Source: Pseudomonadota bacterium
GTDB taxonomy: Bacteria > Pseudomonadota > Alphaproteobacteria > Rickettsiales > SXRF01
Direction: 5' to 3'
Length of the DNA: 44,822 nt
Assembly (NCBI GenBank): GCA_963205245.1
Contig: CAUJIB010000016.1
Span: 1 to 44,822, forward strand
Each line of letters opens with the position of its first letter. Position 1 is the first letter of the stretch. Positions 23,019 to 26,921 of this stretch are shown here, one piece after another. The notes beneath the pieces are model-generated. The model was given only the letters and a program-made list of their open reading frames with translations, did not search any database and was not told the origin of the DNA. A program made the translations under genes and the position numbers.

Positions 23019-23507
23019 TTACTCTGTAATTTCTTTATCTTTTTTATTCTTATCCTCAACTAGGTATTTTATACTATCACCCCATTCCTCTAAAAGCCTA
23101 ACCTGTGATTTTTCTAGTGAAGCAGCACGAAACTTATATTGTATCTCCAAGAAAGCGCGTGCGGTATGACTGCCGAAATGTATCATAACCCAACCTATTG
23201 CCGCCGCTCCATAAATAAAAAGCCATACATTGGGGCTGGCTATGATTGAATCAATGTCATAATGCTTAAATTTTAGTCCAGCTATAAAAACTGGGGTGAT
23301 AGTAGGTAAAATTGCCGCCAAATTACAGGCAAAAATGGTACGAAATGTTGTAAGATCAGGATCATCATCAACGAAATAAGCAGCTATTGATGGAAGAATG
23401 GCAATAAGCAGAAAAATAAACCCCATCTTCAAAACCAGAATCAGCAATATTCCCGATAATATCATAAGTAATGGAATAAATTTTTGCCCTATTCTTAATA
23501 GAAACAT
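23019..23507 (-). CDS. hypothetical multi-TM membrane protein
   Basis: 162 aa with several hydrophobic segments; ATG one base after the stop of the upstream pseudokinase gene. Confidence 0.7.
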   Translation of the reverse strand: MFLLRIGQKFIPLLMILSGILLILVLKMGFIFLLIAILPSIAAYFVDDDPDLTTFRTIFACNLAAILPTITPVFIAGLKFKHYDIDSIIASPNVWLFIYGAAAIGWVMIHFGSHTARAFLEIQYKFRAASLEKSQVRLLEEWGDSIKYLVEDKNKKDKEITE

Positions 23508-23508
23508 C

Positions 23509-25656
23509 TCAATTACTCCGCACTGATAAGATAACGCTAACTATTAAGGCGATAATTGCTATATAATGCGCCATCCTCGCACCTAAACGCTTGCTGTGTA
23601 TATCTATCATCTCTTTTCTTTTGTAATAAATTATATCACTGGCATTCTGCTTGAAGTTTCTAGAGGCTTGCTGGAAAGCACTTACTTCCACCTGTGCATA
23701 GCCAGATTCTATCATAACCTCCGCTACTTTCGCAATACTGCCGCTACGAGCAGCACTAGCTAGCATATTCAATAATTTTTTCTTCATAGTTTTACTACGT
23801 ATTACATCAAGTGACGGCATAATCCTTGTCGCCAGCCAATTAGTCAAACCGGGTAGATTATTAAGTTTGGTTCTGTATTGTGCAGAGGCTAGTAATTTTA
23901 ATGATATCATCGCCGGATTCTTAGAAAGTGTGATGTGAGCATCCAGCTGTGGAAGATGTATCTCGTGTTGCACCCCCAAATGACTGGCAATAAAAGCTGC
24001 TATATGCCTGTCTATCGGGTCACTGTTACTAAATAAGCTTGGTGATAACTGATCCAAAGCTTTTAATAAAGCTGTCAGCGAAGAAACATGCTTACCTGCA
24101 AGCAATGGACTTAAACAACGAATCCCCAGATTAAGATCATAAAAAATACGCTCTACACCAAAACCCAGACCGGTATTACGAATCACAGTACGCAGCCGGT
24201 CTAAACGCAAAGAAACCGCATCAATTACTTCACTCTCCAGCTCATCACGTTTCTCTACTTCTTTATTTTTTTGGTCTATTATAAAATGAAACATGCTCAG
24301 CTCAATGAACTGCATAATCTGATGTAATTCCAATTCTGATTTAGCCAGAACCATCTGGGCAAACAGATTATTTATCCCATCAAGATTGAAAGCGAGTTTA
24401 TGAAAACGGATAGGTCCTGCAGGGTCGAATACCGTAATAACCCGCATTATCTGCTCATTCATATAAGAATCATTTTTCTTACCTGGAGTATTAACAGCCT
24501 TAGCGGTGCGCAGCAAATATTCATTTAATTCTTTGTTACGAAGTGAAATAGCCACCCATGTTGATAAATGGCCATCAGAAAAAATCTCAGAAACAGAATT
24601 CCAGTTTTTGAAAAATATATGCGCCACTTCCCTACGGGTATAGGCTTCTTCTCCTCCAAATTCAAAAGGCCTTATTGCTTCTTGCTGTGGAGGTGTAGGC
24701 ATCACATTATAGCGTTTTCCATCAAGCCAAGCCTTAAGATAACGGTAATTCCAGCGATCATGGGAGTGATGGCTGAGCATTCCACGAAAGAAATCATAAA
24801 ACACTTCCGGCATATCTTTGTTTAAGGTCAGAGCGTCAAAAGCCCCTTTGCCTAAAATTCCTTTTATTAAATCATCTTCGGTAAGACCTGAAAAATGGTT
24901 CATTCCATAAATAATATGCAGTACAACTATAGATAAAGCATAATAATCCTGCTTTGAATCACCATCACCTTTTCCTGCTGGAAGAGCCTGCATACGCTCA
25001 ACAGGTTCATAATAAAAAGCCTGGGAAAAACCACAAGGTTCCGTAACACAAGGACCAAGCAATATAGAATTTGTTGCAGTATCAAAATAAATATTCTCAC
25101 AGTTTATATTGCCGTGTGTGACCCCCAATTCACTCAAATACTGTATAGCAAGAGCCAGAGGGGCAATTACAGAAGTACAAATAAATTCAAATCCGGGACG
25201 GTGTTTTGTTATATTTATAAGCTTAGATAGTTTTTCACCTTTTGGTTTTTCGTATAAAATTACCAACCGCTCTTCCTGCGGTCTGGATAATTCTACTATT
25301 CCAAATGTCACTAACACCATAAGATTAGGATGCGGGGCATTCATAAGCGGCGACAGTATCTGTACGCGCGGCAATGAATTAACCTCGCAAACAAGAGCTA
25401 TATACTGTTTATCAGGTTTTTTAGTATCAACCGCATTATAGGCTAATGCGGTTTTGAAATTAAAATCAGGCAGTGGGGAGTTTAAGTCTATTTTATAATG
25501 GCCATCTAATAGATCTTTTTCATTATTAACAAAAGAAGATGGTGTATATCCGCGCAAAAAAACGCTGAAGGTTTTGTTCAATTCATCCTCAAGCTCAGCG
25601 TTAGATGAACTTTTCATTGTATTAACCGACTGCTTTTTTGCTACTTCCTGTGCCAT
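23509..25656 (-). CDS. protein kinase-fold (probable pseudokinase) protein with C-terminal TM anchor
   Basis: Kinase-like HPNLMVLVTFGIVE...LVILYEKPKGEKLSKLI...LGVTHGNINCENIYFDTATNSILLGP...KQDYYALSIVVLHIIYG; HRD replaced by HGN and DFG absent; C-terminal AHYIAIIALIVSVILSVRSN hydrophobic tail. Confidence 0.75.
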   Translation of the reverse strand: MAQEVAKKQSVNTMKSSSNAELEDELNKTFSVFLRGYTPSSFVNNEKDLLDGHYKIDLNSPLPDFNFKTALAYNAVDTKKPDKQYIALVCEVNSLPRVQILSPLMNAPHPNLMVLVTFGIVELSRPQEERLVILYEKPKGEKLSKLINITKHRPGFEFICTSVIAPLALAIQYLSELGVTHGNINCENIYFDTATNSILLGPCVTEPCGFSQAFYYEPVERMQALPAGKGDGDSKQDYYALSIVVLHIIYGMNHFSGLTEDDLIKGILGKGAFDALTLNKDMPEVFYDFFRGMLSHHSHDRWNYRYLKAWLDGKRYNVMPTPPQQEAIRPFEFGGEEAYTRREVAHIFFKNWNSVSEIFSDGHLSTWVAISLRNKELNEYLLRTAKAVNTPGKKNDSYMNEQIMRVITVFDPAGPIRFHKLAFNLDGINNLFAQMVLAKSELELHQIMQFIELSMFHFIIDQKNKEVEKRDELESEVIDAVSLRLDRLRTVIRNTGLGFGVERIFYDLNLGIRCLSPLLAGKHVSSLTALLKALDQLSPSLFSNSDPIDRHIAAFIASHLGVQHEIHLPQLDAHITLSKNPAMISLKLLASAQYRTKLNNLPGLTNWLATRIMPSLDVIRSKTMKKKLLNMLASAARSGSIAKVAEVMIESGYAQVEVSAFQQASRNFKQNASDIIYYKRKEMIDIHSKRLGARMAHYIAIIALIVSVILSVRSN

Positions 25657-25730
25657 ATCTTAACCTAAATGGTTTTCTTGATGATGTCACAATTCAAAAT
25701 AAATTTCTACAATTTAGAAGATCTGTTTTA

Positions 25731-26921
25731 TTATGGTTTTTCTGCTTTTATTTTCCCCAATATTTGCGTTCCAGAGCTTTCTGAAGGAGAAGATTTAATA
25801 TTTGTTGTGGGAACAGGGTCAGTTTGAGCCTCCTTCAAAACCACTTCTTCAACTGGCTTAACTTCGCTTTTTTCTGCTTCTGGTTCAGATAGAATAGTTA
25901 TTTTAGAGCCTTGATTTTTTGATTCTTCTTTGTTTGCATTTTTATTTTTTTTATTTTTTATCACTTTATTTTGTGATTTTTCTTTTACATCATTATTGTT
26001 TTTATTTCCGGAATTACCGGTTTGGCTGTTATCGGTCAAAGCTTCCAAATTTTCCCAAGCTTTACTGTAATAAGTCTTACTTTCAGTAAGTGCCATATTT
26101 AAGTACGATTTTGCCAAAGCATCATCTTTTGCCAAATGGGCATATAATCCTAGGTTATTATTAAGTAATGCTCCACTCAGATAAAGTTCTGCAATCTTAC
26201 GCGCTTCTTCCAATTTTCCAGCACTAGCGTAAACTAATGCCAGATTCAGATCTACATGCTTACGCTGCGCGCTTCCTAAATTACTCTGCGCCGATGCTTG
26301 TGATATATTTTTTATTGCCACTTCATATTGCTTATCAAGAGCCTGTGACAACCCTAGATTATTTAATATAGAAACATTGTTCGGACTTTGTTTCAAAGCA
26401 GCTTCAAAATACTGGTGTGATTCGGTATAAAGACCACGCGTAACAAATAAAATACCCATTCCGTTTAGGGTTTTCCAACGGGTTTTGTCTTCCTTCAAAA
26501 CATCTTCAAACAAAGCGGTTGGGGCTTCAAAATCCCCTTTTGCTAACAATGACAAAGCTTTTCCTTCTTTGGCGTTTACATCGGAAGGAGATTTAATAAG
26601 AAGTGAATCATATATTTCCATGGCTTTATCATACTCCCCGCCACGGCGCAGGCTTTCTGCCAATAAAAAAACCACTGTGATATTTTCAGGCTCTTTATCC
26701 AGTATCTGCTGATAAATCTGCGATGCCTGTGTAAATTTCTCACTTTTTTCAGCATTTTTTGCCGCTTCTAACTGGCTGTCATAGATAGAAGGAATTTTTG
26801 GCCCTTCAAATGTAGAAAGTAAAGATTTGGAATCAACCGGCATTATTCCGCCATTTTGATCACAGGCGGAAAGCATTAAAACCAGAATTACAGTACTAAT
26901 TATAGAGTGGGGAAAACGCAT
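25731..26921 (-). CDS. TPR-repeat lipoprotein (TadD-like)
   Basis: Signal/lipobox VILVLMLSACDQN; repeated TPR units (ASQIYQQILDKEPENITVVFLLAESLRRGGEYDKAMEIYDSLLIKSPSD...); low-complexity C-terminal tail. Confidence 0.8.
   Translation of the reverse strand: MRFPHSIISTVILVLMLSACDQNGGIMPVDSKSLLSTFEGPKIPSIYDSQLEAAKNAEKSEKFTQASQIYQQILDKEPENITVVFLLAESLRRGGEYDKAMEIYDSLLIKSPSDVNAKEGKALSLLAKGDFEAPTALFEDVLKEDKTRWKTLNGMGILFVTRGLYTESHQYFEAALKQSPNNVSILNNLGLSQALDKQYEVAIKNISQASAQSNLGSAQRKHVDLNLALVYASAGKLEEARKIAELYLSGALLNNNLGLYAHLAKDDALAKSYLNMALTESKTYYSKAWENLEALTDNSQTGNSGNKNNNDVKEKSQNKVIKNKKNKNANKEESKNQGSKITILSEPEAEKSEVKPVEEVVLKEAQTDPVPTTNIKSSPSESSGTQILGKIKAEKP

Follow-up and report, generated by a model that had tools for sequence, protein, structure and literature searches.

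A 715-residue tail-anchored pseudokinase (PK) and a 162-residue small membrane protein (SM) form a real, ancient and conserved module of Alphaproteobacteria. The two genes lie in a window of 44,822 nucleotides, the whole stretch analyzed here, which is contig C16 of genome G000 (1.88 Mb, 97 contigs). Counts given for the order refer to 55 genomes of the window's order, and counts given for the class refer to 385 sampled Alphaproteobacteria. A total of 76 PK loci were read, 36 in the order and 40 outside it.

An earlier, sequence-only reading of the window had described three minus-strand genes between a tRNA and pyrB, the third being that of a 396-residue TPR lipoprotein (TPR). Table 1 shows that the three open reading frames are indeed arranged in this way. 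The SM ATG begins one base past the PK TGA, and the lipobox LSAC is present in the TPR protein.

Table 1. Features of the PK-SM region and its flanks in the window
Feature	Position	Strand	Basis or remark
tRNA-Arg(ACG)	22839-22915	+	Flank of the three-gene stretch
SM, 162 aa, about four TM helices	23019-23507	-	ORF; directly 3' of PK
PK, 715 aa, first gene of the conserved pair	23509-25656	-	ORF; orthologues in 39/55 order and 131/385 class genomes
PK C-terminal TM anchor, residues 691-715	23512-23586	-	Hydropathy
PK all-helical C-terminal domain (predicted), about residues 325-690	23587-24684	-	AlphaFold2, conserved stretches
PK kinase-fold domain, about residues 48-320	24697-25515	-	Profile and Foldseek matches to solved kinases
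PK degenerate catalytic loop HGNINCEN, residues 181-188, replacing HRDxxxxN	25093-25116	-	77 orthologues
TPR lipoprotein, 396 aa	25731-26921	-	ORF; lipobox LSAC; PK neighbour in the window's genus only, outside the module
pyrB	27005-27973	+	Other flank, beside the TPR gene

The linkage of PK and SM was analyzed in the 76 loci. In 67 of them, including all 40 outside the order, SM was located directly 3' of PK and in the same orientation, with a median gap of 8 bp (within 20 bp in 54 of the 67 loci, and a 4-bp overlap of the ATGA type in nine). In the remaining nine loci, SM was found at a different genomic site. When the order was searched by profile, SM was detected in exactly the 39 genomes that contain PK and in none of the 16 genomes that lack it, so that the two distributions are identical (39/55 genomes) even though the genes are unlinked in nine. 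The evolutionary rates of PK and SM also covaried beyond LepA (partial r 0.33, Mantel p 0.004). In a subset of 13 genomes, the covariation was 0.48 for PK-SM, compared with 0.26 for PK-TPR and 0.08 for SM-TPR.

The hydropathy profile of SM contains a long N-terminal hydrophobic hairpin followed by two more TM stretches, in agreement with the earlier description of a small multi-TM protein. The N-termini of SM proteins are often basic, and the C-terminal helix looks cytosolic and ends in a conserved EWG, which would give SM a membrane topology with a cytosolic C-terminus as judged from hydropathy. The W-G pair of this motif is almost invariant across the class, and EWG is likely a contact or a signal. 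No match to SM was found in Pfam, NCBIfam or the PDB.

Some loci depart from the usual arrangement. The whole PK-SM pair occurs in tandem (PK-SM-PK-SM) in one large class genome (L133 8327-13660), and several other class genomes contain two PK copies. In two genomes belonging to one family, the place of SM after PK is taken by a small DUF2628-like protein of the membrane (L053 10963-11352 and L064 616-1017); a peroxiredoxin-like gene lies just 5' of PK in both, and SM is located elsewhere in the genome.

Full-length PK orthologues were detected by profile search in about a third of the class sample (Table 1), and the full-length relatives include sequences from Azospirillum and Skermanella, on which basis the class was assigned as Alphaproteobacteria. 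In the phylum sample, no full-length PK was found outside Alphaproteobacteria; a single genome from a different class gave a match, limited to a portion of the kinase region. Of two contig scans for PK relatives, the first returned none and the second returned only Skermanella stibiiresistens and one Rhodospirillales MAG. No stretch in the class-wide PK alignment was conserved enough for scanning.

The usual gene order in the class is serC-serA-hisZ-purA-PK-SM, with rpoH-rluD opposite; the gene names were taken from the sequences and from the Azospirillum annotation. Azospirillum thermophilum shows this order, with PK annotated as a serine/threonine protein kinase and SM as hypothetical. On a replicon of Azospirillum ramasamyi, the PK-SM pair stands alone, away from purA and in other surroundings. 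The ancestral position is purA-PK-SM-rpoH, which would date from an early alphaproteobacterium.

The distribution of PK was then compared with that of flagellar genes. Among the good genomes of the order, all 28 with PK contained FliG and all 12 without PK lacked it (40/40, phi 1.0); the phi values with PK were 0.59 for TadE and 0.38 for purA. Discordance between PK and FliG in the order was limited to incomplete genomes, and FlhA resolved two of these. On the LepA tree, six changes were required for PK and likewise six for FliG, and on the best tree every one of the six independent pairs agreed; well-supported branches forced only two of the six changes, and the supported independent pairs were too few for significance in the tree-based co-loss test. 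Two related genomes (G019:C1:176629-179070 and G042:C11:17110-19896) have LepA/EF-4 itself interrupted beyond residue 187. In G019 the frame stays open (816 aa), which suggests an intein in LepA.

In the class, a flagellar match was found in 121 of the 131 genomes with PK. Seven genomes were true exceptions: good genomes from several families in which PK was present without FliG and without FlhA. Conversely, 107 class genomes contained FliG and lacked PK. Since both kinds of genome exist, PK is neither required by flagella generally nor always tied to them. The genes cheY/cheA/cheW, cheY/cheZ or motB were located just 3' of SM on the same strand in several families; such neighbours were not clearly more frequent than roughly expected by chance if motility genes make up about 3% of a genome, and were therefore used only as a lead.

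A motility role for PK is thus plausible, if tentative. A bolder proposal is that the tail-anchored pseudokinase, whose helical domain would be a new fold, and its obligate four-TM partner make up an undescribed and ancient membrane machine of Alphaproteobacteria, one that much of the class would need in order to assemble, place or control its flagellum; we regard this as possible, though doubtful. Since the flagella-negative genomes of the order are mostly small, lifestyle and genome reduction are confounded in the comparison. PK-SM may instead play a general part in the envelope, at the cell pole or under stress in free-living Alphaproteobacteria, with the flagellar co-loss being simply a product of genome reduction. 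The seven exceptions, the sizes of the PK-negative genomes of the order (mostly 1.1 to 1.6 Mb) and the ancestral neighbours (purA, hisZ and rpoH, the gene of the heat-shock sigma factor, rather than motility genes) all point in this direction. However, G024 (1.3 Mb) contains both PK and FliG while G026 (2.0 Mb, 99% complete) contains neither, which indicates that size alone does not fully explain the pattern, and the patchy genes purA and TadE track PK less closely than FliG does. A general role is therefore a serious contender, albeit one that falls somewhat short of being probable.

We then analyzed the kinase-like N-terminal third of PK. The Pfam Pkinase model matched the window's PK with an E value of 1.2e-5, below the gathering score, and matched 31 of 35 PK orthologues. 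The PK orthologue profile matched solved kinases with a best E value of 2.6e-12. In the AlphaFold2 model of full-length PK (pLDDT 89, pTM 0.83), a kinase fold is followed by a helical C-terminal region and, at the C-terminus, by a TM helix. Foldseek aligned this model with BRAF, Lyn and PknB (TMt about 0.7) and returned kinases only, even with the viral library included. Sequence and modelled structure agree that the kinase-like third noted earlier is real, and they place PK in the protein kinase fold (ePK-like superfamily).

The catalytic motifs were examined in 77 orthologues. The position of the HRD Asp (residue 183) is occupied by Asp in only one of them, the VAIK Lys is conserved nowhere in the family, and DFG is absent family-wide, with LG(E/D)C or a similar sequence in its place. 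An active Ser/Thr kinase was accordingly rejected as a candidate on these three motifs. The term pseudokinase, first applied to the window's protein, thus holds for the whole family, and the opposite outcome, that homologues might be standard active kinases, was contradicted for the orthologous family. The structural Asp237 is invariant, and Arg301 is more than 90% conserved. Assignment of PK as an anti-phage defence kinase was also rejected, as PADLOC gave only weak matches confined to the kinase domain.

Some kinase folds have acquired other activities: SelO catalyzes AMPylation and SidJ catalyzes glutamylation, both in the kinase pocket. PK might likewise be alive with another chemistry in its pocket, given that the catalytic-loop Asn (residue 188) is kept in 66 of the 77 orthologues and that an acidic residue after the Gly of LG(E/D)C, near the DFG site, is found in 63. 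Against this, PK has no conserved Lys, no glycine-rich loop and no conserved nucleotide-phosphate ligand, and the acidic residue is missing in several orthologues, the window's PK among them. Such an activity is improbable, and we continue to treat PK as a non-catalytic protein.

Because the Foldseek search with the full model gave only kinases, the C-terminal domain of PK was modelled alone. The AlphaFold2 model, built with 72 sequences, is all-helical (pLDDT 94.9, pTM 0.86). The Foldseek search of this model against the PDB found no fold match (best E value 0.52, TM <0.25), and the domain sequence had no match and no Pfam or NCBIfam model. The domain is therefore a candidate new fold by comparison of a predicted structure with the PDB, helical folds being hard for Foldseek. 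It contains strongly conserved stretches (GFGxERxLYxLN..C.SP and DRHIAAFIA). The C-terminal hydrophobic anchor proposed for PK was confirmed, and its TM segment reaches the last 0 to 5 residues in most orthologues.

The TPR lipoprotein was also investigated, since the sequence-only reading had joined it to PK and SM in one cluster and called it TadD-like. In the order, its gene lies 5' of PK in only three of the 36 loci, all in the window's genus (the window, L032 and L033). In other genera the orthologues are away from PK, and in most relatives read they are divergent beside pyrB, as is also the case in the window; strong orthologues in this arrangement include those at L213, L214, L216, L219, L222, L223, L224 and L228. 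TPR is therefore to be grouped with pyrB, and PK-SM merely happens to come next. The divergent pairing of TPR and pyrB, found across several families of the order, is a second conserved neighbourhood in its own right. The survey of neighbourhoods thus upheld the PK-SM half of the proposed cluster and not the trio.

Three proteins acting as one functional complex would be in keeping with the co-directional TPR and PK genes, which are separated by a 74-bp gap without a terminator-like site, and with their adjacency in three genomes of the genus. However, the orthologues of TPR elsewhere sit next to pyrB and not PK, a strong orthologue is missing from several genomes with PK, and the rates of TPR covary less with those of PK and SM than the latter do with each other. 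We consider a three-protein complex very improbable, and the trio as an operon or complex was rejected from the neighbourhoods of the 76 PK loci together with the TPR loci.

Identification of TPR as TadD was likewise rejected. The window's genome contains a separate pair of TadE and TPR genes (G000:C49:4827 and 5405); since this other TPR gene is the one beside TadE, the lipoprotein does not serve as TadD in the Tad system, and its own orthologues are linked to pyrB. TadE-type pilus genes occur at two places in this genome other than the window (G000:C49:4827-5971 and G000:C1:33120-33832).

PK and SM could also be read as neighbours in decay, or as an artefact of annotation, that share no function, and SM without a known domain and PK as a degraded kinase might lend this idea some appeal. 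Its probability is negligible, however, and it is already refuted by the co-distribution of the two genes, which is identical even when they are unlinked, with open frames and conserved motifs throughout the class.

Taken together, the best reading remains that of a dead membrane kinase with a scaffold or sensor role, with PK and SM as the conserved unit. We hold, with moderate confidence, that PK-SM is an obligate inner-membrane scaffold complex; the physical complex, the scaffold role and the membrane topology are what we infer for the pair. SM would be the polytopic membrane part of this two-protein complex, and the C-terminal tail anchor would hold PK to SM. The cytosolic part of PK, comprising the dead kinase fold and the large helical domain, could then offer partners from the cytosol or the envelope a place to dock, without any catalysis. 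The analogy is with EssB/YukC and MviN, which suggests that a dead kinase linked to a polytopic membrane protein would most likely work as a scaffold. The complex may have been inherited from the early alphaproteobacterium at purA-PK-SM-rpoH, and in the window's order its client would most likely be linked to the flagellar/chemotaxis apparatus or to the motile free-living lifestyle.

A function is known for only a few bacterial pseudokinases. PK is carried by about a third of the sampled Alphaproteobacteria, including Azospirillum, with SM present wherever it was looked for, and it is annotated as a serine/threonine kinase though its motifs rule that out. The obligate partner, the conserved locus and the sharp distribution make PK unusually testable.

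Bacterial membrane pseudokinases are already known as a type; the C-terminal domain of PK and its obligate separate membrane partner are undescribed. We found no paper on the PK-SM family in a literature search that was thin on subscription journals. By the features compared, no published wholly or largely pseudokinase family in PMC12599244 fits PK. The ActPs1, ActPs2, ActPs3, DYD, CP1 and DLHK families belong to actinobacteria or firmicutes, or involve COG3899 or helicase domains (PMC12599244); compared with these by description, PK has no extra Pfam domain, no HRD Asp and a purely alphaproteobacterial distribution. PknB-type Ser/Thr kinases resemble PK in overall fold and in having a single-pass membrane anchor, but PK lacks the catalytic and nucleotide-binding residues family-wide and has no extracellular sensor domain.

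The nearest family by taxon and TM position is that of the GLW pseudokinases, which are proteobacterial and, like PK, have a C-terminal TM region. These proteins carry GLW where HRD would be and a poly-Leu motif (LLLL/W) where VAIK would be (PMC12599244). GLW occurs in only two of 77 PK sequences, at positions 281 and 416 and not at the HRD site, and LLLL never occurs at the VAIK site; PK was therefore rejected as a GLW pseudokinase, as both defining motifs are missing. The MviN pseudokinase domain of Mycobacterium, in the ActPs3 family (PMC12599244), resembles PK in coupling a non-catalytic kinase fold to a polytopic membrane protein. In MviN, however, kinase domain and membrane protein form a single polypeptide, whereas the partner of PK is separate, small, without a Pfam match and alphaproteobacterial.

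EssB/YukC is the pseudokinase of type VIIb secretion in Firmicutes (PMC12599244). It has an N-terminal pseudokinase domain, a central TM segment, an extracytoplasmic C-terminal domain and associated T7SSb genes, whereas PK has a large helical C-terminal domain, an anchor at the extreme C-terminus and an obligate four-TM partner; the two also come from different phyla and are unlike in size and in domain order. No T7SS genes were noted among the PK neighbours, and identification of PK as EssB/YukC was rejected on this and on its C-terminal anchor. Nevertheless, both proteins carry a membrane-anchored, cytosolic dead kinase domain in which the three motifs and the glycine loop are degraded. EssB/YukC acts as a scaffold for its membrane partners (PMC12599244), and the same role is proposed here for PK.
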